From Onthophagus taurus (lineage: Eukaryota; Arthropoda; Insecta; Coleoptera; Scarabaeidae), in contig NC_091967.1 in the NCBI RefSeq assembly GCF_036711975.1, positions 10,974,001 through 11,038,000 on the forward strand: DNA of 64,000 nucleotides. Direction: 5' to 3'. Shown here piece by piece: positions 8,686 through 64,000 of the stretch. Below the pieces are notes generated by a model. The model saw only the letters and a list, made by a program, of their open reading frames with translations. It did not search any database and was not told the origin of the DNA. Position 1 is the first letter of the stretch; each line of letters starts with the position of its first letter. Made by a program: the position numbers and the translations under genes.

Positions 8686-9104
8686 TGTAGTATATTTTTC
8701 ATTGAACTAAAGTACTTTTGGTTGTGCAGTCTAAAAACTATTTTATGTAATCAGCTCCAAAAAATCCAATAATCTTTCATCAGAAAATATTACATTTTCA
8801 CAAAATCTCAAGTTCTTACAAATATATTTTAAGTACACTATTTCAGTGCATACAAAATTATATTATGAAATAGATACTCATTACAAGGGTGTGCAGCTGA
8901 TCCAATCAAAAATTTTATAATTTTAAAAGTACCAATGCACATGTTTGATTATCCAATTTGAAATTGTTTCATAATCGTACATACTTACTGTTTTTTCTAA
9001 TCACACTATAATTTTTTTAGAAGCAGTTTGAAAACACTTGATTAATCATATTACGATAACGTTTTTTAATAACACTTAAAATCCAACCTAAACTTTCCAC
9101 CAGA

Positions 9105-11581
9105 ATGTCTATGTTTATTTTAAACTTAAAGAAGAAATTATTTATGTTTTTAGTGAATTAACTGTTTCAAGATGGCTGGAAGCTCATCTCGACAGAAGCG
9201 CGGGTTTAACAACTCTACCAAGAAGTCTTGTTTTGGCCGATGTGACCGGTGATGGCGACCATAAGCTAGTTCTTACAGATTTAAAGTTTGCATCAAATGA
9301 AAGAAGTCGACTCAAGGTGTATAAAGGAACACTTTTGACTACTGACCAAACTTTACCTGAAACCCCATCCTCGCTAATTACTTTTTACACAAATTCTTAT
9401 GATTCAAAAATTCCTGGTAAATTCAAAAAATATTTAAAAAAGTCAAACTTCATTAAAAAAATTTGTTTCAGCGATTGCTGTTGCTTGTGGTACAGAATTA
9501 TTAATCTACAAAAACAACAAACCTTACTTTAAATTCACTGTCGTGCCCTTACCCTTTTCAGCGTTAGAACAAGCTGTTTGGAAAAAATTAAGCGATGAAT
9601 CGAATCGTGATGTTAGTTCTGCTTTAAGCGATCTTAAAAGCGTTCCTTTCCATACTTTATCATCAAGGTGAAACATCATTTTATTTTACACTGTTTTTTA
9701 ATTATGAATTTTTAGATCCCAAAATCTACTTTCATTGGAGGTAAATGAAATTTCTGAATATATCAATAAATATTCTACATCAGAACCGAAAAAGTTCTCC
9801 CCCATCACTTGTATGACCACGCTAAATAGAAGCACACAAGATAAGGATGCTCCAGCTTGTCCAATTTTAGCTACAGAGGCTGGACAAGTTTTTATTTTAG
9901 ATCCACAAACTTTTGCACCTTTACATCAAGTATGTATATAACATACTCAAAAGATTTATGAGTGCAAGTACTCATTTTAATAGGCAGTTGCATCTTCTAA
10001 TAAAACCACCCCATACATAATCCAAACAATTGGTGTGTACGACGTTGAATTTCGAATAACAATTGCAAGCAGAGAAGGTTATGTAACTTTACTTCGAAGA
10101 GGTTGGCTTGAAGGAAAAACTCTGTTTCAAACCACCCCAAATATTGTTGATATGGCATTAATTCCTGGTGATGGATTCATTATGATTGCAACAACAGAAA
10201 AGTTATTGCAATGTTATACAAAAAGAGTACGCATTTTTTATCTAAATGCAATTTTTTTCCTTAACATTTTTTTAGGGTAGCAAAGTGTGGAATTTAAAGA
10301 CAAAATATGAAATAACTTGTTTATGCGTAATTCCTTTGAGTTATATAAACACTTCCTTGTTGGCGGTTGGGTTTCGCGGCGGTAGTATTCATTTATACCA
10401 AGGAAGAACTTTAATGGACGTCATTATTGGACCGGATACACCTTCTGCAATTATTTTTGGACAGTTAGGTCAAGAGGAACACGTTATGGTCATTGTTACA
10501 ATGAGTAAGAAAAATTTTTGAGTCAAACTCATCAAAACATCCTTTTTATTTGTTTAGGTGGTGCATTAAATTTAAAAATATTAAAAAGAACAGCAGATTT
10601 TAACTTAAATAAAGAGGACTCTATGTCGGCTCCTATTCAACAAGCCAAACCTCTTCCACTACCAAAAAGAAGTAAATTATTTTTAGAACAAAGTATGAGA
10701 GAAAGACAAAACCCGATTGGTACTAAATTAATTAAAAAAAAAATTATTAATTAAAAATTAATCTTTTACAGATATGCATCAAAATTTTCAGAAAGACCTT
10801 ATTCGTTTAAGGTTATTAGCAGCAAGAGCAATGGTTCAAGCTCAATCAAACCAAACAGGTGTAGGAAATGAAAAAGAACTTCTAAAATTATCAGCTCAAG
10901 TAAAAAAAATATAAAAGATCAATTCTAATCCGGGTTTTACGGTTTTTTGTAGGTTTTAGGACTTGGACCAAAGTTTACTTTAAATTTAACGTTGGAAAAC
11001 ATAAACATTGAGCGAGCATTGATCGGATTAAACATAATTTTGCATTGCAATCCGACGATTTACAAACTGTCGTGTTATCTAATCAAAGTAAGTTATGATC
11101 CAAATCTGCAAAATACTTTTTTAAAAAGGTAAATACAGGTGTTACGTGATGCAACGCAATTCAACGAGTTGTGCCACGTAATCGAACAAAGTGTTTAATT
11201 TGCTTTAAATAGATATCAATAATTGTTCTCCGCCTCACTTCTCCAATTTTATTATAACTTTATGAAACGAGGTAAATAATTATCTTTCTTGATCAAACTG
11301 ATTAGTACGTTATCTGTGCTCGACTTTGGCAGGCCAAGGTTAAGTTGGATAACGTTGTTTTTTTTCGTAATACTCAGGTACCTTTGATACCACCAAATTT
11401 ATCGTATAAGATTGAGGTAAAAGTGCAAGAAAGAGATTTAGAAAACGTCGTTGAAGAAAATGATGGTGCAACGGAAAATGTTAAAATTATTAGAGTCTTT
11501 GCTAGTAAAAATGGGGAAAATCGACCTGTGCTAGCTGCTATTATTACTATGCCACCAAGTGAAGTTTCGACATTATTATAA
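9105..11581 (+). CDS. BBS1: Bardet-Biedl syndrome 1 protein (BBSome subunit)
   Basis: BBS1 is a core subunit of the BBSome, the coat complex that moves membrane cargo in cilia; in insects it would act in ciliated sensory neurons and possibly sperm. Exons: 9154-9416, 9472-9667, 9716-9929, 9984-10226, 10276-10504, 10558-10719, 10772-10899, 10953-11087 and 11333-11581. All junctions are GT-AG and the frame is continuous. The translation follows vertebrate BBS1 throughout: WLEAHLD then LADVTGDGDHKLVLTDL near the start, TCMTTL, YDVEFRITIAS, a GGALNLKILKRTADF block and LRLLAARAM. It ends in the ear-like C-terminal domain (PGKFTLNL-type and MPPSEV). The start is uncertain. I propose ATG at 9105 with an 8-nt coding exon (9105-9112) and a 41-nt intron, giving about 608 aa against about 593 in human. 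A more distant first exon is possible. AATAAA motifs lie just after the stop. Confidence 0.92.
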
Positions 11582-23511: not shown

Positions 23512-26500
23512 ATGAAATTCCTAATGGACATCATAATTCCGCCCTTTCGAGGTATCAATGGTAAATGCAATGTTGATATGACGAAGAAAAATAATTTTTT
23601 GCAATCACAAACTGATGAAACTTGCTGTGATTATCCACTGAAGGTTCTTGATAATCTAAATGCTCTAAGACAAAATTCTAGATTTTGTGATGTGGAAATT
23701 ATTGCTGGGGAGAAAATTATCAAGGTAATTTTATATTTCACAAATACAAGTATATTTCTGAAATCTTTATGTATCAAATATAATTATATTAAATAAAATT
23801 ATTTTTTATAGGCAACTTATTAAACATTCTAATATAATACAGAGTGTCTCACGCAACTGGTTCTTTAGAACTTTTTTAGGTTCGTTATTTTAAATGGAAT
23901 GCTACAGTTTTTATTAAACCATTTAATTGTACATAAAAAATATGTTGACTTTCATAAAAGTAATTGGTACCTAGCGTTTTTCGTTTTCGAGTTATTTTGA
24001 TTTAAAAAAAAATTTTTTTTTGGAAATTTCACCATGCTCTTTAAAACCCCATATCCCAGCCAACGTTCTTTCAAAAAAGGTCTAAATTGGCACGATTACT
24101 CTTTAGATGTTGTTAAATAGATTGTCATTTGTTGTGTCAGAATATCTTCTACAGGATGGTCATAAATTGAGTTACCGTTTCCCCATTTTCAATGAGGAAA
24201 AAGTCGAAAATTTTAAACAGAACGCAACATATTTTATTAGCCAACCCAAAGGGGAATTTAATTCTCTTCAAATTATCTATAAACATTCCTATACCTATTT
24301 ATTGTAGTTTTCTCATATTGGGAAATTTATTAAAACATCTTCTCTCCAAAATTTCAAACCTCACCAGTTACGCGAGACACCTGTATAGTAAAACCTCAAT
24401 ATAACTGAATAATATAGGGAAGGGAATGTCTTTTATATGAATACCTTTGCGTTCAGTCTATATTTACACCAAAGATGGTAGAATGTAAGAGTACTGTTAG
24501 CCTTGCGTCATAAGACGCCTATTTTCGTCTGTTATATCGACGTTTTACTATATTATGAATTATAATTTGCTTTTTGTTTGTTGTTGAATTCAATGATTTT
24601 TTACTTAAATTCTAGGCTCACAAGGCAGTTTTAGCAGCTAGTAGTAACTATTTCCAAGCTATGTTTACTGGTGGATTATGTGAAAAAGATCAAAATTCCG
24701 TCGAATTACACGCCATATCACCAAATACTTTAGAATCTCTAATAGACTTTATATATTCTGGTAAAGTGTGTATAAGTCAAAATAACGTGCAAGAATTAAT
24801 GATAGCTGCTGATATGTTGGAGATGCATGAAATCGTTTCATGCTGTTCAACTTTTTTAATCAAAGAACTCCATCCAATTAATGCCATTGGCATTTATAGG
24901 TAACATACAGTACTGTGCGAAATAATAGGTGCAAGTCTATTTATGTGTTTTATAATAATGGGTATTTTTTTGAGCAACCTCTCTTAAAGAGTAGCCAAAC
25001 TTGATATTGGATCCACTTTGATTCTATAACTTCTAATTGCCTCTTTTGAGTTTGAAAGATAAAATTAATAAAGAACTGTCAAAATTTGGCTGTGCAAAAA
25101 ATAGGTGTTATAATTTTAAAAGTTAAATTTCAATATAGGTTGTAATTTCAGAAAGTTTTTATAGTTTCCAGGTAAGTTGTCTAGATTATTATAACATTTA
25201 TAACATTATAGCAAGGAGATAAGAGAAATTATTATAAAACTGTGTAAAGAGGGCAAAATATATCGTGCAATAGCCAAAATAATTGGCTGTTCTCAAAATA
25301 TGATAACCAACGCACTAAAATGGCGCGATAAGGTGGAAACCCATGAAAGAAAAACATCAACGCGTACCGTTGGAGCAATTATTTGCTAGGTAATTTGTCT
25401 GCTAGCCCATGAAGACTTCCATTATTGTCAAAAAAGAACGTATCGAGAAGATTACAATTTACATGCTACCATGGAAGACTAGCTGTTTAAAAATGGCGAA
25501 TATATTATCAAGCGATGAAAGTAAATCGCATCACATAGACTTAATGGCTTCCTCCAGGAAAAGAATGTAATCCTAGCTTAATTGTTTGGGATTGCTTTTG
25601 CTGATATGAAGTTGGCCCAATTTTTTAGATACAGGGTATTTTACATCAATATTCTGGAAAGTATAATATTGCCCTACACTGAGGACAATATGCCTCTGTG
25701 GTGGAAGTTTCAGCAAGACAACGACCCCAAACACACTTCCAGGGCAACAAAGGCTTGGTTTGCTGCAGTAATGCTAAAAAACCGCATTCTTTGTTGTATT
25801 ATTATTATTTATTGAATAATATTTGTTTTGAAAAACAATCGTTTAATAGTTCTGATTTTAGTATTAACCTTTTTCCCTTATATATTTTACAACTAAAATA
25901 CATTTAAAGACTATTTTTAGGTCACACCGATTATTTTGCACACCACTAACCTCGTTTATGGTGATTTTTATAATTTTTTAATTTAATTAATAATTTTACT
26001 AGATTTGCAGAAGGTCATAACTGGCTTAACTTAGCAAATGAAGCAATGGGTTATGTAGAAAGTCACTTTCCTGAAATTTGCCAAGAAGAGGAAATTTACG
26101 AGTTACCAAAAGAAGAATTTATCAAGTTTTTATCATCAGAAAGATTGCGTGTCGATTCGGAGTTTCAAGTTTTTCAGGCTGCTATTAAATGGGTTGAGCA
26201 TAACATAATAGATCGTAGGAGATATGTTTTTGAAATTTTAAAGTACGTTCGACTTCCACTTTTTTCTATCAGTAAGTAATAATAATAATAAAAATGTTAT
26301 AATATAATTACATGTAATAATTTTAGATTTATTAGAAAAAGCAGTTAATGATTGCACAGATGGTAGTTTAAAAGTCGCATTAAAATCCGTTCACAACGAT
26401 TTAATTAATAGAAAAGGTTGTCTTGTTACCTTGTCAGTTTTACCTAGACATTTAGCCAAAAGAGATATATACGTTATTGGCGGGAATAAAAGAGAATTGG

Positions 26501-27673
26501 CTTGGCATAGGGGAACAGAAAGTAGCTACGTTAGTGTTGTTAAATTTAACACATTCACCAAGTAAGAAATAAATCATCCCATTAAAAATTGCTTTTACCA
26601 TTGTTTTAGATACCTACGTATAATCAAACAACTGTATTTAATTCGCAGGATATCTTGCAGTTAAAACATGGAAATTATGTCGAAATCAAGTTACCAAACT
26701 GCAAATTAAATCCAGTTGATTAATTTAAAATACAACATTCCTTTAATTTAATTTATGTGTAGAGAATGGACAACAGCTCCAGATTTAATAGTAAATCGTA
26801 TTGTACCGGGTGTAGCCACATTAAATGGAAAAATTTACGTAGTCGGTGGTGAACAAGAATCAACAAGTCTAAACAGCTGCGAATGTTATGAACCTGACGA
26901 TCCCTGTTGGAAAAGTGTCGCCAGTATGATCGTCCCAAGATGCGAATTTGGTTTGTGTGCTTTAAACGGATATCTTTACGCTTTGGGTGGTTGGGTTGGA
27001 AGCGATATTGGTGGGTGTATAGAAAGATACGATTCAAGAATCGATGAGTGGAAACATGTTGGTGTTATGCCAGAACCTAGATTTAGTATGGGAGTTGTAA
27101 CATATGCAGGTTTTTTTTTTATTAAAAAATAATTATTTAAATAGATTGATTTGGATTTTTATAGGATTAATTTATATGGTTGGTGGTTGTACACATTCAA
27201 GAAGACATTTAACGGACCTATTAAGCTTCAATCCACTAACTGGGGAATGGAAATCTTTACCACACATGACTGTTGCGAGATCACAAATGGGCGTTGCAGT
27301 TATTGATGATTATTTATATGTTATTGGGGGCGATAATAAAAACAGTATTCTTGATTCTGTTGAAAGATATTCTTTTAAACAAGTAAGTTTAACTATTTTT
27401 TAATTGAGATATCATCTTATATTATTATAAACTATTTTGTTGCAGAATAAATGGAGTAAAGTTCCATCAATGATGGTAGCAAGAAGTAGACCAGCAGTAG
27501 TCGTTGTGGACAAATTATTGTACGTTATCGGGGGATCCCAGACGACCGACGATTTTTACAGAGCCCAATTCACTTTGGATTCGGTGGAATGTTACGATAC
27601 GGTGTCATATCGATGGACAAGTTGTCCAGCTTTACCCGAAAGTAGAGCTGAATCTGGTGCGGTTGTGATATGA
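23512..27673 (+). CDS. IPP: BTB-BACK-Kelch protein, IPP orthologue
   Basis: Kelch-like protein related to human actin-binding protein IPP; family members bind F-actin or act as CUL3 ubiquitin-ligase adaptors. Exons: 23512-23724, 24616-24899, 26003-26271, 26327-26561, 26763-27109, 27165-27382 and 27446-27673. They sum to 597 codons with an intact frame (human IPP 584 aa). BTB lies at about residues 40-160 (FCDVEIIAG, AHKAVLAASSNYFQAMF, NNVQELMIAADMLEM). BACK follows at about 165-275 (FAEGHNWLNLANEA, SEFQVFQAAIKW). Six Kelch blades follow, each with a double-Gly strand (YVIGG, YVVGG, YALGGWVGSDIG, YMVGG, YVIGG, YVIGG) and a Trp. YALGGWVGSDIG, TLDSVECYD and the last blade match IPP specifically, from memory of that protein. 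Start uncertainty: ATG at 23512, 23524 or 23578. Introns 1 and 2 hold transposon relics. Confidence 0.88.
23838..24385. mobile_element. MITE-like DNA element in IPP intron 1
   Basis: Terminal inverted repeats: the left end CAGAGTGTCTCACGCAACTG pairs with the right end CAGTTACGCGAGACACCTG. Both are bordered by TA (23838-23839 and 24384-24385), consistent with a TA target-site duplication. About 545 bp. Internal open frames (24107-24307 and 24192-24404) overlap in different phases and encode no recognisable transposase, so it is non-autonomous. It is inert with respect to the gene because it sits within the intron. Confidence 0.72.
24386..24550. mobile_element. Pogo/Tigger-like MITE adjoining the first
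   Basis: The left end TAGTAAAACCTCAATATAAC pairs with the right end GTTATATCGACGTTTTACTA, and TA follows on the right. The termini resemble the CAGTAAAACCTCGATATAACG ends of pogo/Tigger elements. About 165 bp with no coding capacity. It shares the TA at 24384-24385 with the preceding element, so one inserted directly beside the other. Confidence 0.65.
24908..25946 (+). mobile_element. Degenerate Tc1-like transposon in IPP intron 2
   Basis: Imperfect terminal repeats (CAGTACTGTGCGAAATAATA at the left; the right end reads ATTATTTTGCACACCAC) are flanked by TA. In between, frameshifted pieces translate to Tc1 transposase blocks: a helix-turn-helix-like CSQNMITNALKWRDK (about 25290-25335), then INILESIILPY and FQQDNDPKHTSRATKAWF (25648-25770). 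The last contains the QQDNDPKHTS signature around the second catalytic Asp. Multiple stops and frame changes make it a pseudogene. Confidence 0.85.
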
Positions 27674-28408: not shown

Positions 28409-31400
28409 TCAAGTAAAAATGTTATCCAACGAGTAAAAACTGGTGAACATTGAGTGTTTCACCCACATGGAATTCTCGAGCATTCGGTACAAAGACAGAG
28501 CGAACGCCGGGAATGCGGTTAATATGTAACTGGAGAGGTTTAAATCGGTGTGAAAACACAAAGGATCCTTACTTTCCATACAGTTCCTGATAAATTTCAA
28601 TAAACCGGTCGGTGTGTCATCGTTGAATGAAAACGAAATCTTCGGAAATTGTTTTTTAACAACTTGCACCCATTTACCTTTTATATTATCTTTATAAGCT
28701 ACTCTATACAGGCAAAGATGAAGATCTTCGAGTTTAAGTGCTGGTTGACTGGGCCGAGTTCCTAAACCGGCGCATGTCAAAATAAATCTCCATTTTCTTT
28801 CAGGAGACCAAAAATATACATGACTAAAAAATACTAGTAAAAAAAAAGATATAATAAAATAATTTTCTTTACGTGACGACTTGTTGAATCGTTGGTCTTT
28901 CGACTGGTTCATACAACAACATCCACGTTATCAAATCTGAAAGTTCTAAATTTTTTGCTGATAATTGAGGAACTGCTTTATCCAAATTTTTGAGAATTAC
29001 TCGCATATCATCGCCGTAAGGATGCTTTCCCGCGGTCATTAAAAAGTGAATTAACATTCCTAGAATTTTATATAAAAAATTAGTTTTTATACATAATCAT
29101 TAAAGAAAATTGTACTACCAGCAACTTGAATATCAGAAGCAGAGGTACATTCCATTGTTGAAAGTTGCTTAAACGTTCTGTAAGTCTCTGTAGCAAACCA
29201 AATTATTGAAGAATTTGGTGCTTCTTTAAATTTAAATAAAGCCTAAGGAAAGAACAAAAAATATAATTATTAATAAAATTAATAATGGACAAAAGATGAG
29301 GCAATACCAACTCATGGAATAAGAGCTAAGTAAATGTATGTAGCAACAGAATGAACATGGGAAGAAAGCTGCAAAGTATAGAAGTAATACAAAGCTTTCT
29401 GCCATAAGAAACGAATCGTTTCACCAAAGATCAGCAAGCAAAAATTGGTCTCGAAAAATCCAGTATAACGCTACGGAATTAATTTTAATTACAGACACTA
29501 TGGTGTATTTAATGGTAAACAAGAAGTGTAGCTCCACATAGTTCTAACCTGGGTAGAGAATCTTTAATGGGACAACTCGAGACTTGCCACCGATAAAATA
29601 AATTTTGATAGACTCATCTTGGTCTTGGTAACGTAAATAAGTTGAGGTAGCGTATCCAACCTCGGAGGCCTTGGATGACATAAAGCGAGGTATCTCAAGA
29701 TTTGATAATAAAGATAATTTTTGTTTAAATGTTTCCCATTGTGTTACCAGATGAATGAAATGCTTGGCTTTGAATGTAGATGGTGTCAAAATAAGTAAAT
29801 CCTTTATTGATGTTGCACTAGTGACAATATTATTAACATAGATATTATGATTTAGAATATGAGCACCATGAGGATGCGTATCGGAGTATAAATTTGTTAA
29901 TTCAAGTATTGTTCGAAGAATAAAACCTTCTGGCATAACTTTTACGATGGGGGAGCTTTTGAATCATTTCTGCCTCATTTCATTACTGACTTCTGGCTGT
30001 ATAATCATTAAGTCGATCAACTTTCTTGTTTCTAAATGTAAAAAATCACATATTGATGACATATATGACAACTCAATACAGAATGGAACGGAATATCAAA
30101 GGCTAGAAAGGCAAAGAGAGTGAGCATCATGATAACCATGAAATATCATCATGATTGCTGAACCATCAATTAGTAGTTATAAAAGTACAAGAAGGAAACA
30201 TAAAAAAACTCGTTGGAAAGATGAAGTTGATGAAAAGACAATACACGATAATTGCTCGAATCATCAGAAATGGAACAACTGTATGTTTATTAATATTCTT
30301 ACCCTATGTATTCCAAATTCAGCAATTTTAACGACACCATTCATATCAACAAAAATATTGGAAGGTTTTAGATTTCCATGTACAATAGGATAAACTCGAT
30401 TATGCAAAAATAACAGTCCGGTTAAAAATTCTTTAACAACATCCAAAGCACTTAAATTAGTCTGATTTTGTTTCATCAGCATTAAATACTGTCCAACGTT
30501 GTATTCGCAAAGAGGAGTCGCTATGATTAATTCGTTCGTATCGTAATCGCACGCGAAATAATGCAGTAAATTTTTGTGTCTTAAATCGAGTAGATCCACT
30601 AACATTGTCCTGATCATTTCGCAAACGCAACTTCCTTTCGGTATTCTTTTAACCGCTAATGGACGGTCGCAAGAATCTAAACCTAATTCGACGGGAGTGA
30701 AGTTTCCTCCGGTGGAAATCACGTGAGATTGCCGTTTTTCCTTGCAACTTATTCGAACTTTGCCGTCTAAAAATATTTGGCAATCTTCCATCATTTCTAA
30801 ACTTCTTACTAAAGTACACCACCGGCTGGTTTCTCCTTCGTTTTCTGGTTTTCTTAATGGATCAACAAAAGTATCGTTAAAAATCAGATCGGAACGAACC
30901 GAAAAAGCGTTTTTATTGAAAAACATCATTGTTTTTGAAATCCGATCGTAATTGAAATCGATTTCTTTAAATCGTCCCATTTCATCATCGCTTTCATCGC
31001 AAACATTCAAAATCGATTGTTGCATGTGATAAGCATTCTTCAACGTTTTCTTTTGAGCTTCAATATTGATTTTTGATTCACTCGGTTTTGATTTAGGCAA
31101 CGTAATCACTTCCTTCATGAATAAAATGTCGTCTGATAAATAATTTTTTGTGAGGAATTTGAGTTGTTGGTCTAAGACGTTGATGCGAATTTTGTCGAGT
31201 GGTTCGCGTCGGTTGTTTAAAACATCTTCCATGTATTTTACGATGGCGTTTTCTGTCGAATCGGGACAAGGAAGATCAATGTTTTCTGGAAGATTAATGT
31301 TAACAAAAACCGTTTCCATCGGACAAACTTCCGATATTATTGTTGTGCCACGAATTTCGTGACTAAGTAGAACGTATTCTACGTTTTTGATGAGGATTTT

Positions 31401-34046
31401 GCATTGTTTAATATCTTTTGCCGCTACTTGTTTGATGTATAGTATTAATCCGTCGAATTCTTTTCGTAAAGCATCGATTTTTTCTTGTTCTAATTTTTGA
31501 AGTATCGTTCCTTGTTCTAAACATTCGTCGGAGCTTAAAAATCCTTCTCTAGCGCAAAAATTTTTATCCGCTTCTTTTTCCAATTGGTTATCAATGATCC
31601 AATGTTTTTGGTACCGATTAATAATTTTCATTAAAAGTATTTCTAAATATTTTAAACTGGGGTAGATTGCGTCGTTTAAAGTGTTTCCTGGCCAAGATTT
31701 ATTTTCGCTGGAAAAAATTATAAAATCGTCTGGTTTTAAATAGGTAGGATCTTTTAAGTAATCAGGATTATAAGCGGAATTCGCACGGGAAGAAAATGGC
31801 AAATTCAAAATGTGACTTTTCCAATCTTCGGAGGAAAGCGTCATCGACTCTTTGGCTTTTTCACATAAAATTTCAGCTTCGATTCCGACCAATAAATTTT
31901 TTTTAAGCGAATTAACGATATCGCATTGATTCATTTCAAAGTCACGGAGGGATTCTTCTAAGTTAAAATCTTGTTGGGAGTCATCAATCCATGAAAAGTC
32001 TTGGGTTATTTGATTATCTTGCAATTGTTCCATATATTTTCTATTTGAAGTTAATCGCTCTCTTAACTCAGCAGTTTTAACTTTGTCGATTTTAGCTTTT
32101 AAAGCTTTTGTGCGTCTTTTAGTCTTTTTTAAAAACATTTTTGATTCATCATCGTTTTTTTCGGTTTCTTGTAAGATATTTCTTCCGTAAATGATTTTTT
32201 TGCAAATCGTTTCACCGCTTATAAGTAAGTTCATGAGAACTTCGAATTTTTTCATTTTGTTATATGTCTAGTAAGAAAGTTAAAAAATACATAAAGATGT
32301 TGATACAAAATTATTTTTTGTACTTACTCGTTCATCTGTAGTTTTGTTTTGAATTGAAATAATTCTTATTTGCTCATAATATGGTTGTAAATCCTCGTAA
32401 TTGTTTTGTAACCATTCTTGACAGCGCCCTTTGACCAAACATGCTTGCATAATAGAACGAAAACACAAAGGAACAATCCAAGAACAAGTTTTATCATTTT
32501 CGTACCTAAAAAAAAGTTATTTAAATTATATTTATCATCGTAAGCTTTGTTTTGATACTTTTTCATTATTTCTAAAGCAACATCAGCATAATCACTCCTT
32601 TCAAAAATGTCAGACAAAGTTAGTTCATCTACTACGGGATTTTGACAACATTCTGGATGTTGTAGGAGTTCCAGAAGGATTGAAAGAATTATTTTCAATC
32701 TATCTGGTACGTCAATGTATTTTTGAGCAGCCTTAAAAAAGGACATTTTATTCAAGAAAATTAAAAGACACGAAAAATACCATCCTGATTTTTTGGAAAA
32801 CGTTTAAATCCAAAAGAATTCTCATTCCTTCACCGGAATATCTTGCTACATACGTAAAAATGTGCAATAATATGCCTGAAATAGTCTGTCCACTGCATTG
32901 AGTTGTATTTGGGGAATTTATTATCATCATTAATCTTTTCTAAAATAAAAGCTGTATGAGATCTCATCAAAATTATAACGGAAAGTGTTGAAACTGTCAA
33001 AAATCTTGGAAATGTAGCTTAATGACGAAAATGTGGATATAAACTACATTTTCAAGACCAATAAAGATATATACTTCAAGATATTCTTCTAATGAAAATG
33101 CGTATTTATATAACTCGCTTAATAATTTTTCCACAACCAAATTTGGAATTTGTAATTGTTTTGTAATAGCCGAAGATAAAGCATAACACAAAGCAATAAA
33201 TCCATTTTTATCTTCTAGCGATACATTAGCTCCCGAGGAAATCAATTTTTCAATGATTTCAATATTATTTCTAAAACTGGCTAACATTAATGGCGTTATT
33301 CTCGTAACGTTAATAATATCGACGTTAGCCTAAAACATTTATTCAGTTTAATTAATCACATTTAAATGTCGTTTATTTTAATTACCCCTCTTTCGATTAA
33401 AATGTTAATAAATAATGTCCATTCTCTTCGTACAGCCATGTGAAGCATACTGTTTCCATTTCTGTTTATAATGTTGCTATCAACAATTGTCGTGTTGTTG
33501 ATATTATTCCATAAGAAAATAAAAGATTGTTCGTCCCAGATCTTGTTATCGAGGGCTACGAAAAGGACGTGATCGCCGTTTGAAGCTTTCGTTGTAGCAT
33601 CGGCTCCGTTTACTAATAAAGCTTCGATACATTCCAAATTTTTACATTTGATTGCCCATGTAAGTGGTGATATATTATTTTGATCGGTACAGTTAATTTT
33701 ATGTCCATCGCTTAAAATACTTCCAATCAAATCGACTTTGTTTAAAATCGCTGGGCCAATCATTGGTGGAATTCCAGACTAAATTAATGTGAATAAGAAA
33801 ATACGTTTTAATTTTATGCATCAAAATTAAAACGCAATAACAACAAAAAAGAATTTATCAATACTAAATTATGATAATTACCAAATCTTTAACTTTCAAA
33901 GTATTTCTTATGGTAAGAATTTCTTCATGCGTAAAATATTTGTTAAAAGATACTATCGAGCAATCTTTTGAAACATCCGTGACACTCATTGCTTTCTTCT
34001 CTTGGTTATTACTTTTGGTCTTCTTCTTTTTCTTCGACGGCATCAT
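28409..34046 (-). CDS. RNase L-like ankyrin / pseudokinase / KEN-domain protein
   Basis: Ten exons (minus): 33882-34046, 33386-33778, 33075-33329, 32781-32939, 32559-32731, 32328-32505, 30303-32267, 29119-29242, 28873-29059, 28409-28823. They total 4014 nt with unbroken phase, 1337 aa. Residues 1-55: Lys-rich start. About 56-270: ankyrin repeats (SPLTWAIKCKNLECIEALLV, NSMLHMAVRREW, TPLMLASFRNNIEIIEKLIS). About 271-950: long, largely helical region that I do not recognise. About 955-1200: kinase-like domain with VAVK-type LAVKR (Lys981), HYFACDYD and TPLCEYNVGQYL as in IRE1/RNase L. HRD is HGN (1071-1073) and DFG is EFG (1091), so catalysis is unlikely. About 1201-1337: KEN domain, opening HVYFWSPERKWRF and including LLKFIRN. 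Arg1279 and Asn1280 are kept, but the catalytic His five residues after Arg is Ser1284. The domain order is that of vertebrate RNase L; IRE1 lacks ankyrins. Function is inference: a 2-5A or other nucleotide sensor, or an inactive scaffold. No frameshift was seen, so it is probably a living gene. Confidence 0.85.
29520..29990 (-). mobile_element. BEL/Pao retrotransposon remnant in intron of the ANK-KEN gene
   Basis: The open frame 29544-29936 on minus first resembles the BEL/Pao reverse transcriptase around its catalytic loop (HILNHNIYVNNIVTSATSI; the usual YVDD is YVNN). It then jumps to the RNase H-proximal segment (EVGYATSTYLRY, then IYFIGGKSRVVPLK, as in the AYGA-x-x-YLR and AKSRVAPLK motifs). 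The part between is deleted. Catalytic Asp loss and the deletion make it dead. It sits in the roughly 1060-nt intron (29243-30302), same strand as the gene. Confidence 0.8.
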
Positions 34047-34490
34047 TTAACAGTAGTTCAACGGTCAGTATTACTCACGTATAAAGAAAAACGGTAAACG
34101 TGAGATATTGGATGTAAAAGTACGAAAAGGCAAGTGTTATTGTATTGACATGACAATGTTTACCATTTTGTCATTTTTAGTATTATTTGGAAAGTATAAA
34201 ATTGAATTGGAAGGTAACGCTTTTACGATTTAAATAAAAGGACATAATAATATTTCTTATTTATACTTTAAGTGTATCATAAAAGTAAGAGATAAAATAA
34301 ATACATAAATTTTTGAAACATAGATTTTGATTGGAATTGTTCGAAGCATCTCAAAAGTTGGTGAGCAGAAAACTTCTATCTCGGAAATAAATTGGAAATG
34401 ATGATTATGATACGAAACACATTTAGTCTTCATAGAGAAGGCAATGACAGCGTGCTATGAACCACAACATCCGCAGTAACAATAAATCAA
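34047..34490. other. Upstream region of the ANK-KEN gene
   Basis: Should contain the minus-strand promoter and leader of the RNase L-like gene. No convincing TATA box was found near the ATG. The rest is AT-rich and featureless. Confidence 0.35.
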
Positions 34491-34499
34491 AGAATGTCA

Positions 34500-35110
34500 G
34501 AAAGTTTCCCAACTACTACAGCCTTGTTACAAGGATGCTGTCTGTGTACGGATAAATTACTCCTTTTTATACACTTTACTGTCCGCAGACGACCAAGTCG
34601 TTGTGGGTGCAGATAGAGAAGATGCAAAATACATGAGAAGGAAACTTAAAGAAGAATACGAATCCTGAGGTCTTGAACTAACACAGCGAAAACAGAATAC
34701 TTAGCGGTGAGAGCAGAGTAAGATTCCAAATAGTGAGAGGGATATATCTCATACAATAAATCTAGGGCGTAAAGCAGTAGAACAGCTAAACGGTATATGG
34801 TGGTCTAACGGAATAAGGAACTGCACTAAACGCAGAATATTCCTATTTATAATAGAAAGTATTACATTGTATTGCTCTGAAACTTGGAACTTCTCAAAAA
34901 AATATGACTGGAGGTGCAAAATATCTAGACTCATAATAAACAGAATAGAGAAGAAAAGGTTGACATAGTATGGGGCATTTGAACAGATTGGTCGAGAACA
35001 GATGGCCAAAAAAGATGTGGTGGAGGATCTCGCCAGTAAAGCATAGAAGAGGAAGACCCCGGAATACGGAAGCGAGAATGAATTGAAAACGGAGGAATGA
35101 AACGACAATT
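34500..35110 (+). mobile_element. Non-LTR retrotransposon fragment (RT C-terminus)
   Basis: Frameshifted plus-strand pieces follow the order of a LINE reverse transcriptase. ADDQVVVGADREDAKYMRRK (about 34577-34640) contains the catalytic A-D-D box. Next come AVEQLNGIWWSNGIR and CTKRRIFLFIIESIT, a CSETWN-type block (about 34760-34900) and a basic tail. Stops and frame changes show it is inactive. The 3' edge abuts the polyadenylation end of the small secreted-protein gene. Confidence 0.75.
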
Positions 35111-36406: not shown

Positions 36407-39400
36407 TTACGTTTGGCTCTCAGTTTGTGTTGCATCTTGCAATGAAAAACTGGTTTCTCCATTATGTCTCAAGTTAGAATCAGTTTGTTCAGATGAAGAA
36501 GTGCTTTGTTCATGTGTATCATCATTTTCCATTGAGGAATTTCTTCGATCAACGATATTAATCGAATTCTCGTCATCCTCTTTTGCATTTGGAAATAAGG
36601 TGTTATAAGAAGGCGGATCTAAATCTTCGTATCTCGGTGGAGTGGCATCATCTTGTTGGTTATTTATGATTAATACTGTTGTTGGAGTTGTTTGAACGGG
36701 CTCAACAGGTTTTGGTTTTCTTAAACACTCGATTACTCCACAAAACATTAAAACTGCCGCACATAGTAACATCCCCAAAAGAATATAACCCCAAGGACCG
36801 TATTGGGAAAGAGTCATCGAAATCGACTCTAATGCTGTCGTTGGTTTGTCTTCTTCCGGCTGTGCGGTTGTAGTTGATTTATCATAATCGTGATTTTTTG
36901 GTACAATGTTAAATAAAGGTGCCTCCGAGGGTTTCCTTAAACTATGAAATATATTTTCCGCGAACATATCGTTTTTTAAAAACCGTTGTAGTTCATTTAT
37001 GTTATTAAAATTAGTACATAAATGAGTGTCTTCATCACTTTTCGTCGCACCTTTCGGACAATTTTGATAACCATCGCAAATTAAATGATCCGAAATGCAG
37101 AAAAGTGGTTTATGCCCGATACTCATACAAGTGTGTTGATCTTTTCTTTTGCAAACGTCTCCTAGTTAAATAAAAATAAAAAAGGAATTAGTTAATTGAA
37201 AATTATCGTTTTAAAATCATAATTACCTAATCCAACAGCCGTGAACAATAATTTACGATTATGCGTTGAACTTATTTTGGTGGGTTGATGCCAAAGGAGC
37301 GTTATCTCCGGATTCAAAAGGTCAACATTCCTTAACAGTCCATTCGAACACATATCTCCATTCCAAACTGGTTTATGAATGCTATCGATCTGAAACTAAA
37401 ATATTTTTTTTAATAGGTAAATATTTTTGGGGAAACGAAATATAAAGATTTTGTAATAATATACAAAATTAATAAAAATCTGAATGATGAATCAAATCCA
37501 TTAAGACTATATCTTACTATTAAAGATTAGATAAGAAATATTTCTTAGACTTTGACCGTATAATACAAGTTTAACTACAAAAATAGTTTTCGAAGATTTG
37601 TGGACTAAAATGATTTTACTTTATAGATTTTTTCAAAACACTCTAAATTTAGAGCTACATTGCGTTTTTGAATTGTATTGCTTTTTCTGTTCTTCATTGT
37701 AGTGTAGAAATTGATTGACCATCATAATATGTCCTATAGTGAGATAGATAAATAAGGTCGTGCAGAAAAGATAAAGCATCGGAGGCCCAAAATCATTTCT
37801 TTACTTAGCTTATAAATAATACATTTCCTTTTTTACGTTGAGGCAAAAAAGATGCTGAATTTTATTAATTCTATTATTCTGGAAGTATTGAATTTTATTT
37901 CAATAATCATGTCATTAATCTTGTTTTCATCGTTTAGTATCCAATACTATTTTCTTATGATTTATTCATCACACTTATCTTTATTACCTATTTTTTTTAG
38001 TTTTTATTTATCAATGAAAATGATTTACGGTATCTTTGTGAGGTCTTATTCCTACCATATAATAATTATTAAATTTGTCTTTATTCAAATATTTAATTTG
38101 AAATCCTGTTAATATTGTTGTTAAATTTTGTCTAAATTAAACTGCCAAATTTCATTAAAAGCTGTTTTGAGTAGCATTAATATCCATAAGCACAAAATAG
38201 AGATTATTCTTTTTTTGTGTATTCTTATAGTAGCAAAAAATATTACATCTGGTTTGTTAACCTTGAAAAGACGAGACAACAATAGCTTTATGCAGGTTTT
38301 GTGCCGTTATTGTCGGATTCAGATGAGTCATGTTCTAGGTTAGTAGAGATTTCTATCAGTTTAACCGTAATTTTCAAATTGAGGCGAAAAAAGATGCTGC
38401 AAAGAGGGAAGTTTTTTTTACACAGAGAACAACTACGTTATAAATGGCACGTATTGTACTTGCAATTTACGTAAATCAGAATTTAATTGATTCCGAGAGT
38501 AAATTACGTAGTATTAGTTTTTTTTGTTAACTTATAAACAAATGGTAGTAATAAATTTTTATACGTTCCTTATTGTTCTAAAATTTGTTTACAATAAATA
38601 TTCTAAGAATATATTTCTTAATGTTTTCAACTTTATAATATTTTAATCAATAAGTTGTGTTTAAAAGAAGACTTACCACGCTCATATTGCATGATGGTTG
38701 TACTGGAAAATGCTTCCTAAACTGGAGGTAAGGCGGTGAGGGAATTTCAACAATGGTCATGTGAACAACATAAGTTTTCGGCGCTTTTATTTTTACTTTA
38801 CACTCTCCTTCAATTATATTTGGATCTAACGAGACAAGAACTGAAGATTCCGATCCTTCTTTTAATATAATTTCCGAGTCTTCGCATAATTTTTTGATCG
38901 ATGTATCTACGGCGTATTCTGAAAGAACAAAAATCAATAAAGTTTGATTCCATAACAGAATTTTATTTATAGATCAGTCACAATTTTTTATTGTTCTTTG
39001 TAAACACGAAAAAGGAACATCTGCTATTTTTAGCACAGCACTGATATCGCAAACAACAATTCAACGTTGAAATTCAACGTGTTATGTCATATGCTCGTTA
39101 GCCTTTTTAAAGCAATCGTGAGATACATACAAAATAGATGGAGAGTTATGTTTTTTTATGATAAAATCGACAAAAAGATTGTTAAATTAAAAATAATTGT
39201 TATCTGACATGAATCGTCTAGTTAAAAATTTAATACTCGTTTTGGAATACCTCATAAACAATAATGCAATGAAAATATTTCGTAAGTAAAATGAATTAGG
39301 TATTTATTCATATAGGAAATATCTTGGTAAACACGTATTTTTAAAATTGTTTATAAATTCACCACTGATAACATGTTCAATAAATTAACAAACAAAATCA

Positions 39401-62111: not shown

Positions 62112-63370
62112 ATGAATGGAAACTTAAATAATATACAAAATGGAGATAAAATTTTAAAAGATATCACACTAATTCCCAATAGTAACGATAATCAGGCGTA
62201 AGTATTGGGTTCAATTTCTTTGTAAGCAATTAATTCAATTTTTATATTATTATAATATTATTTTAGAATTGCTATGCCTTTAAGTGCATTTCAACAGGAA
62301 CTTGAAGAAGCTGCTAATGAGCCTTTATTCAATAATGTACAAGGTGATGAAAAATTGGCTGATTGTTCGTACACATCAGAAATAGATGCAGCCGATGAAT
62401 TAGATGTAGCTAATACTTCTTTTTGTGAAGACGATAATTTATCATCAAGTTCAAATACTCCCATAAAACCTCAATTTTTAACGCCTTTAATAAATAAGCC
62501 TAATAAATATGTTGGATTCACTCCAAAATTAACAGAAATCCACGAAAATGTAAAATCTACCAATTTTATGCAAACACCAAATAATATTTTACTTGGTTTA
62601 GATAAAAAACCGATTTTAAAGAATTTTATGACTTGTTCACGATTAAAAGATTTACGTAACGTACCTAGCGATGATCTAAAATTAAGTAGAAAATTGAATA
62701 TGTCTGTTGATGGGATTATTGAAAGAGCTGATCAAATATCGTTTAAACATTTACATGATGAAAAAAGGATACCGTTGAATAAAGCGGAATTAGTTGAACC
62801 TTTTAAAACGCCAAAAAGCGAATACAGGGCGGGTCAGAATTTGATTCAACACGCAGGGGTTGTATATTCCTCTCAAAAATCTGATAAAGAAAATGTTTTA
62901 AATCAATTAACAAGTGTACCGAAATTATCAATAAAAAATTCATTACAAAGTGAGAAGAAGTTTCTTGCCTCGTTAAAGGATGAAAAAATAACAAAAAATA
63001 TACCAGACACAAAACCTGTTCTAAAAGTAACTTCAAATGTGGTAAATCAAAATAGTCAAAGAGAAAATCACCAAAATGAAAATTCAAAAAAAGAAAATTT
63101 GAATAAAATTTGTACAGTTTCAACAAATAACAACCTACAGCAATTTGATGAAATCATTGTAAATAATATAAAATATCTGGTTTTAAATGAATTGGGTAAA
63201 GGTGGATCATCTGTGGTGTACCTTTGTTATAACATGGATAAGAAAGTTCATAGAGCAATTAAAAAAGTTAATTTAAGAGGAGATAAGTTGTGTGTAGAGG
63301 GATATATTAATGAAGTCAGAATGATACATAAGTTACAAAATTGTGATAGAATAATCAAAATGTATTCATA
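62112..63370 (+). CDS. TTK: TTK/Mps1 dual-specificity kinase, 5' part (truncated by window end)
   Basis: Spindle-checkpoint kinase that phosphorylates kinetochore proteins. Exons 62112-62197 and 62267-63370, then a GTAAGT donor; later exons lie beyond or are not visible before 64000. A disordered N-terminus of about 330 residues, with no TPR repeat seen, is followed by the start of the kinase domain. VLNELGKGGSSVVYLC is the glycine loop with the GGSS signature typical of Mps1. It continues with AIKKVNL (catalytic Lys), INEVRMIHKLQ (alpha-C Glu) and CDRIIKMYS, matching the D-x-I-I-x-L-Y of TTK. HRD, DFG and the rest are missing because of truncation, not damage. Start chosen at the first ATG with upstream stops. 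The Drosophila counterpart is ald/Mps1. Confidence 0.88.
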
Positions 63371-64000
63371 GTAAGTATATTTATATTGTTAAATGGAATT
63401 AGTTCTTAAGTACTAAGGGTACAGAGATAGTTAAAATTTTTCTAATCCCTTTGTATAAACTCTTCATACCCACAAAAGCTCATCATTTTATATCTCGATT
63501 TTATTTAGGATATTTATTTATGTAGAACTTTTTTAAAATGTATCTGAACACACAGAATTTTTACTTTTCAATAACAAAAATTTAGGGTGTCAAATGTGTG
63601 GAATATAACCAATAACTTCGCCATTTGTGGTTTTAAAGAAAAATGTTTCAAATGCAAGTTTCTTTATTAACCATGGCGCATTTTTTGGCGATATTTGTAT
63701 TGTTTTTGGTTTTGTTGGTATGGCAACCATTGTTATTTTAAATGGGATGCATATATTTTTTTTGTATACTTTAATAGAGGATAAATCTCTCTATGCGATG
63801 AATATATCAAATCATATGGTTGTATAAAAAAACATCGAGAAGAAATGTGTTTTTTGAATGTATTAAATCAGGTAATTACAAACAAAGTAGGCACCGAATT
63901 AACACCGTTGACAGCTTTAAATGTCAAAAAAATTACATGTTTTCGGATAGCGAACCGGAATTGGTATTATTTCGTCGTATTTCGAAAAATACTGAGAATT
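63371..64000 (+). other. TTK intron, unresolved
   Basis: Follows the donor at 63371. The open frame 63627-63827 shows no kinase motif. 63840-64000 has repeat-like composition but no motif that I can name. Confidence 0.35.

Follow-up and report, generated by a model that had tools for sequence, protein, structure and literature searches.

A predicted ankyrin-pseudokinase-KEN-like protein with RNase L-like architecture in the beetle Onthophagus taurus

RNase L is a vertebrate antiviral enzyme in which ankyrin repeats, a kinase-like domain and an RNase tail follow one another, and to our knowledge Drosophila has none. Can an insect genome encode a protein of this order, and would such a protein be an RNase L? 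The question is raised by a minus-strand gene within a 64,000-nucleotide stretch of the Onthophagus taurus genome (RefSeq assembly GCF_036711975.1, NC_091967.1, positions 10,974,001 to 11,038,000; hereafter the window, in whose coordinates all positions are given), for which an original prediction made from the letters alone had proposed an RNase L-like architecture. We conclude from sequence comparison that the gene appears to encode a divergent, single-copy ankyrin-pseudokinase-pseudoKEN protein, RNase L-like in architecture, that cannot be called RNase L. That it encodes an ankyrin-pseudokinase protein is nearly certain, and its tail very probably adopts the KEN fold. On balance we lean towards the reading as a whole, mechanism included, of a non-cleaving ankyrin-pseudokinase-KEN-like protein belonging to the kinase-KEN superfamily of IRE1 and RNase L.

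An intact insect gene with the RNase L domain order would mean either that the design is older or that it was assembled twice, and in either case the origin of RNase L becomes open to testing. If its KEN part is a pseudo-RNase, it would be an unusual natural kinase-KEN protein that signals without cutting RNA. In 12 lower metazoans, comprising four sponges and eight others including a springtail, no RNase L was reported (PMC6307210; this and the other papers cited are drawn on for the parts of their text available to us). KEN has been described together with kinase domains and, in some proteins, ankyrin repeats, with expansions in Oikopleura and monocots, and the available part of that survey gives no insect case (PMC3710099). 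Among the literature listed for us, which left outside most subscription journals and all bioRxiv preprints, no paper was evidently on an RNase L-like insect protein.

Domain order of the predicted protein

The gene runs from 34046 to 28409 (-). As originally predicted, exons across this interval can be joined without an internal stop, and the ten that we joined comprise 4041 nucleotides, or 1346 residues plus the stop codon, compared with the 1337 codons given earlier. The parts of the gene are as follows.

Exon 1, 33882..34046 (-): start codon and lysine-rich N-terminus, residues 1-55; upstream in-frame stop, codon usage inconclusive
Exon 2, 33386..33778 (-): ankyrin repeats 1-3 and most of 4, residues 56-186; Pfam Ank_2 5.8e-11 alone
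Exon 3, 33048..33329 (-): rest of ankyrin repeat 4, then repeats 5-6 with the sequence that follows, residues 187-280; Pfam Ank 1.8e-6
Exon 4, 32781..32939 (-): middle segment, residues 281-333; frame and splice sites, codon usage giving no support
Exon 5, 32559..32731 (-): middle segment, residues 334-390; frame, splice sites and codon usage
Exon 6, 32328..32505 (-): middle segment, residues 391-450; frame, codon usage and a strong donor, GTAAGT
Exon 7, 30303..32267 (-): linker from residue 451 to about 955, and kinase N-lobe through the HGN and EFG motifs (to residue 1105); 655 stop-free codons, Pfam Pkinase 3.8e-11
Intron 7, 29243..30302 (-): 1060 nucleotides, with a Pao-type retrotransposon fragment at 29963-29547 (-); Peptidase_A17 3.9e-8
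Exon 8, 29119..29242 (-): first part of the pseudokinase C-lobe; frame, splice sites and kinase alignments
Exon 9, 28873..29059 (-): second part of the pseudokinase C-lobe; Pfam Pkinase C-terminal part 0.0041 alone
Exon 10, 28409..28823 (-): kinase-KEN junction HVYFWSPERKWRFIL, then the KEN-like domain as far as the stop, residues 1209-1346; Ribonuc_2-5A E 0.029-0.049, shuffles and hhalign

The predicted protein begins with six ankyrin repeats (residue 56 to about 266, counted by eye), followed by about 690 residues without an assigned domain, a kinase domain and a KEN-like tail. Against Pfam, the joined protein matched Ank_2 (1.8e-16) and Pkinase (6.8e-22), and KEN was unlisted at E<=1. Of the ankyrin-pseudokinase-KEN order proposed originally, the RNase L arrangement within one gene holds, and the KEN element is a weak match, above shuffled sequences yet under the Pfam cut-off. 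The same order is found in human and pig RNase L (4oau and 4o1o), with which the beetle protein also shares the lack of a transmembrane-like segment: its maximum 19-residue hydropathy is 1.38, so there is no obvious membrane span, and it is probably cytosolic. RNase L has nine ankyrin repeats rather than six, and differs from the beetle protein in the spacing between ankyrins and kinase.

The ankyrin part is 24% identical to that of human RNase L across 184 residues. RNase L was not among the best 60 of its 333 matches in the Protein Data Bank (PDB), other ankyrin proteins outscoring it, and this comparison gives the ankyrin part no particular link to RNase L. Between residue 281 and about 965, the best PDB match was at chance level (E 0.24); Pfam gave no match to residues 281-450, and the exon 7 linker matched nothing elsewhere in the genome at E<=0.01. 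Three NCBIfam matches to exon 7, kinase-type or chance, fell far under the cut-off, and the KEN exon had none.

The KEN-like tail and the kinase domain

The KEN-like match starts at a junction of the IRE1/RNase L type, directly behind the kinase. We scored it with three profiles, built from five KEN sequences (human and pig RNase L; human, yeast and own-genome IRE1), from RNase L and from IRE1. The first two gave 14.0 and 14.9 bits, scores equalled by none of 5000 shuffled sequences, the best of which reached 11.0 and 9.4 bits, respectively (hmmsearch reported 4337 and 4239 of the shuffles, the remainder lying under its limit). When the first 16 residues were removed the scores were 9.9 and 14.2 bits, still without an equal among 5000 shuffles. 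With both profiles the KEN part ranked first among 191 open reading frames of the window, itself included, and it ranked fifth with the IRE1 profile. Profile comparison with hhalign gave a probability of 73 (P 3.1e-5) for the five-KEN profile, 72 (3.4e-5) for RNase L and 2.1 (0.023) for IRE1. For scale, the RNase L profile assigns 29.4, 18.4 and 13.0 bits to yeast, human and the beetle's own IRE1, and the IRE1 profile assigns 40-41.5 bits to RNase L. Ten of the 16 KEN columns that are invariant in the five RNase L and IRE1 references are kept.

Several results weigh against a KEN assignment. Scanned alone with 24736 Pfam models, the last exon matched Ribonuc_2-5A at E 0.049 and 0.029, or 14.1-14.9 bits compared with a curated cut-off of 23.3. 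The IRE1-only profile gave the KEN part 3.6 bits, a score as high as which was seen in 54 of 5000 shuffles, so that it was indistinguishable from them; a KEN resemblance to IRE1 shows up only when RNase L sequences are part of the profile. A phmmer search of the tail against the PDB returned human RNase L, collinear, in second place (E 0.74), behind an unrelated PTB-domain protein (0.41). Single-sequence structure models were of low confidence, with a predicted local distance difference test score (pLDDT) of 39 for the tail, and 35.

If the tail is a KEN domain, could it cut RNA? Arg 1288 and Asn 1289 are kept, the catalytic His is replaced by Ser at 1293, and the conserved Asp, which has a role in KEN catalysis, is replaced by Gly at 1282. 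Because both of these residues are substituted, we infer that the tail is unlikely to cleave RNA by the usual mechanism. For cleavage, KEN domains cannot do without the His of the HEPN motif and also require its Arg (PMC3710099). The same survey, in its available part, considers that RNA is probably bound but not cut by certain HEPN domains lacking the Rx4-6H motif, a prediction for an RNase fold that the beetle tail would share; it differs from them in that the examples named are MtlR and Swt1, and that within KEN the motif is mostly conserved (95%). A further point against a non-cleaving protein is that RNA cleavage might survive a change in the active site, and the corresponding alternative is a working, divergent RNase L-type nuclease with a rearranged active site and a ligand other than 2',5'-oligoadenylate (2-5A). 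The retained Arg and Asn, the LLKFIRN sequence that the tail has in common with RNase L and the intact gene all speak for such an enzyme, which we nonetheless consider unlikely given the loss of the conserved Asp and of a His regarded as essential in KEN (PMC3710099).

The kinase domain to which the tail is joined is likely a pseudokinase: LAVK retains Lys 990, HGN replaces HRD (Asp to Asn at 1082), EFG replaces DFG (Asp to Glu at 1100), and the helix-C Glu is probably lost, the alignment being gapped there. The ATP-binding Lys is retained as in the RNase L pseudokinase, and nucleotide binding is putative. Unlike RNase L, which lacks most of it, the beetle protein has an activation segment. 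A short segment between the catalytic-loop Asn and DFG is shared with RNase L and not with IRE1, but is found in three outgroup kinases too, and is therefore nonspecific.

Searched together against the PDB, the kinase and tail found IRE1 at the top with 65.6 bits, compared with 49.8 bits for the best other kinase, LKB1. The IRE1 alignment extends 15-17 residues into the tail, across HVYFWSPERKWRFIL, where the two proteins share an HxxFW junction. Without the 137-residue tail, yeast IRE1 (50.8 bits), NEK7 (49.6 bits) and GCN2 (48.2 bits) were level. It is therefore the coupling junction between kinase and KEN that carries the specific signal, and, as a point against our reading, membership of the superfamily rests on junction and KEN together, the tail-less kinase being as near to NEK7 and GCN2 as to IRE1.

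These results bear on a second alternative, in which an ankyrin-pseudokinase of another kinase family carries a tail that merely resembles KEN. Ankyrin repeats and a kinase are combined in ANKK1, RIPK4, TNNI3K and ILK, which are not known to carry a KEN. This alternative draws on the KEN score under the Pfam cut-off, the chance-level phmmer result for the tail, the equal distance of the tail-less kinase to NEK7 and a best tree that places the gene outside RNase L and IRE1 (below). We regard it as decidedly unlikely, since none of the 5000 shuffles reached the KEN score, even after removal of the first 16 residues, and since the match lies directly behind the kinase and keeps 10 of 16 invariant columns.

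Relation to RNase L and IRE1

To which of the two known proteins is this ankyrin-pseudokinase-KEN-like protein closer? Its KEN part is 26.2-26.8% identical to RNase L and 19.4-20.3% to IRE1, and its kinase 22.5-23.6% and 26.6-28.4%, respectively; between RNase L and IRE1, identity is 21.7-25.8% for KEN and 25.5-29.6% for the kinase. Among diagnostic KEN columns, 3 are RNase L-like, 1 is IRE1-like and 10 are neither; among those of the kinase, 2 are RNase L-like, 18 are IRE1-like and 19 are neither. The 18 IRE1-like kinase columns may be ancestral states that RNase L has lost.

In the best tree the gene fell outside RNase L and IRE1, with ultrafast bootstrap values of 92 (kinase) and 84 (with KEN). 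The tree holds only six kinase-KEN sequences, with three kinases of the same genome as the outgroup, and its branches are long (1.6-2.0), so long-branch attraction is a concern. Approximately unbiased (AU) tests on kinase plus KEN gave p values of 0.88 for a position outside both, 0.18 with RNase L, 0.08 with IRE1 and 0.0009 with the beetle's own IRE1; on the kinase alone they were 0.93, 0.098, 0.096 and 0.0018. The phylogeny thus rejects a grouping with the own IRE1 and does not tell apart positions on the RNase L side, on the IRE1 side and outside both.

A recent copy of the genome's own IRE1 was considered as a candidate and rejected by both tests (AU p 0.0009 for kinase plus KEN, 0.0018 for the kinase). 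In agreement with the original prediction, the gene is distinct from this ordinary IRE1, on C5, which was the single match in a Pfam KEN family search of the genome at E<=0.001, the studied gene scoring too weakly. Introns also differ: from TYAVD to its end the own IRE1 lies in one 331-codon open frame, where the studied gene has two introns. IRE1 (own, human and yeast) shares with the beetle protein a kinase identity of 27-28% and differs from it in having a lumenal and transmembrane part, and kinase and KEN motifs that are not degenerate.

A third alternative is orthology with vertebrate RNase L, the ankyrin-kinase-KEN fusion being inherited from a common ancestor. The order is the same, KEN identity is 26-27% to RNase L compared with 19-20% to IRE1, and the AU test did not reject the grouping (p 0.18). 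Repeat number differs, however, 690 residues lie between ankyrins and kinase, the 2-5A residues are missing (below), diagnostic kinase columns favour IRE1 by 18 to 2 (with the caveat on ancestral states above), and no RNase L was found in the lower Metazoa examined in PMC6307210, so that we judge orthology improbable. Both deep descent from a common ankyrin-kinase-KEN ancestor and a separate fusion are possible for the non-cleaving protein that we favour.

The original prediction had gone on to suggest a nucleotide-sensing arm, a claim left unsupported by the loss of 2-5A pocket residues, the absence of an OAS1_C match at the cut-off and a KEN without the catalytic His and conserved Asp. We compared seven residues of human RNase L (W60, N65, Q68, K89, F126, E131 and Y135, of which N65, Q68 and Y135 are presumably pocket residues) in four repeat registers, leaving out R155, R309 and H311; one of 28 comparisons agreed, F126 in one register. 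W60, K89, F126 and E131 are named as 2-5A residues of a pocket in ankyrin repeats 2-4; the same paper describes mutations of this kind in mouse RNase L that have no effect or only a partial one, E131A falling in the latter group (PMC5927464, available part). As for OAS, which the 2-5A pathway requires although membership of the RNase L family does not, the best OAS1_C match in the genome scored 14.2 bits compared with a cut-off of 19.9; pieces of STING were found by the same method, and Mab-21-type genes are also present. An OAS-RNase L axis is described as lacking in Aplysia (PMC9334734), and OAS has been treated as ancient in eukaryotes, with STING found in 8 of 19 arthropods (PMC10732462), in the portions of these papers available. 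Sensing of 2-5A is thus without support, and another ligand is conceivable.

Since the key residues for RNA cutting and for sensing the vertebrate alarm molecule are missing, the protein's probable role is that of a sensor or scaffold and not of an RNase. The ankyrin repeats and middle region would bind a protein partner or ligand, and binding would let two molecules pair by their pseudokinase-KEN halves, in the manner of RNase L and IRE1. Rather than cutting, the resulting KEN dimer could offer a binding platform for RNA or protein, or it could regulate a different KEN protein, IRE1 for example. More tentatively, the gene may represent an undescribed invertebrate family of ankyrin-pseudokinase-KEN receptors that predates, or is separate from, vertebrate RNase L and serves as a non-cleaving sensor making no use of 2-5A. 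No relatives were confirmed in searches of viral contigs and prokaryote genomes; eight phage records matched, with alignments (25-30% identity) that lie in the kinase part or begin just before it.

Continuity of the gene and its surroundings

Is the locus one gene? On predicted splicing, it is one continuous unit with an intact frame, without stop or frameshift across the joined coding sequence. All nine introns are GT-AG, and eight of them span 49-108 nucleotides, with GC contents of 12-30% compared with 34% for the coding sequence. An in-frame stop lies just 5' of the first ATG, and AATAAA-type signals lie 3' of the stop codon. At window composition, the 655 open codons of exon 7 have a chance log10 P of about -23. 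Judged by codon usage trained on 2358 codons from long open frames at other loci in the same genome, the used frame beats both other forward frames in 8 of 10 exons. The exceptions are exons 1 and 4, where a rival frame (with 5 and 8 stops, respectively) outscores it; in exon 8 one reverse frame (2 stops) does so. The donor of exon 3, AAT/GTAGTT, is weak and its 3' splice choice uncertain; together with exon 4, the 3' end of exon 3 is the least certain part of the gene model.

A decaying gene, or ankyrin and kinase-KEN neighbours joined on paper, is highly improbable: retention of intron 6 would stop the exon 6 frame at 32280, exon 7 has an early in-frame ATG and splicing is predicted only, but the 4041 nucleotides are free of stops and frameshifts, codon usage backs 8 of 10 exons, and the 12 nucleotides from the 32280 stop to exon 7 are too few to hold the end of one gene and the promoter of the next.

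The continuous gene that we favour is present in single copy. With the KEN exon as genome query, two matches came up besides the exon itself, both at chance level (E 0.6 and 2.6). Exon 7 found itself and 14 matches, all limited to the kinase part, and the ankyrin-middle part recovered itself in five pieces, along with 33 matches confined to the first 211 of its 395 residues, the ankyrin part; none of these searches revealed a second copy. A search for telomere repeats gave three overlapping TTAGG matches at a single place, compared with 11 for the reversed control, and none for TCAGG, and so said nothing about the taxon.

Other features were identified in the window around the gene:

25974-27672 (+): KLHL-type gene, represented by BACK and kelch exons, converging on the studied gene
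34486-34968 (+): pieces resembling, by eye, a broken reverse transcriptase of the long interspersed nuclear element (LINE) type, just upstream of the gene; no Pfam match at E<=1
36407-37165 (-): exon that may encode a membrane protein, matched weakly by LDL-receptor class A (E 0.34)
9092-9532 (+): ciliary gene exon, BBS1-like (PF14779, 1.1e-20)
62256-63371 (+): protein kinase exon with a long N-terminus (Pkinase 3.4e-7, just under the cut-off), which by eye we take to be TTK/MPS1-like

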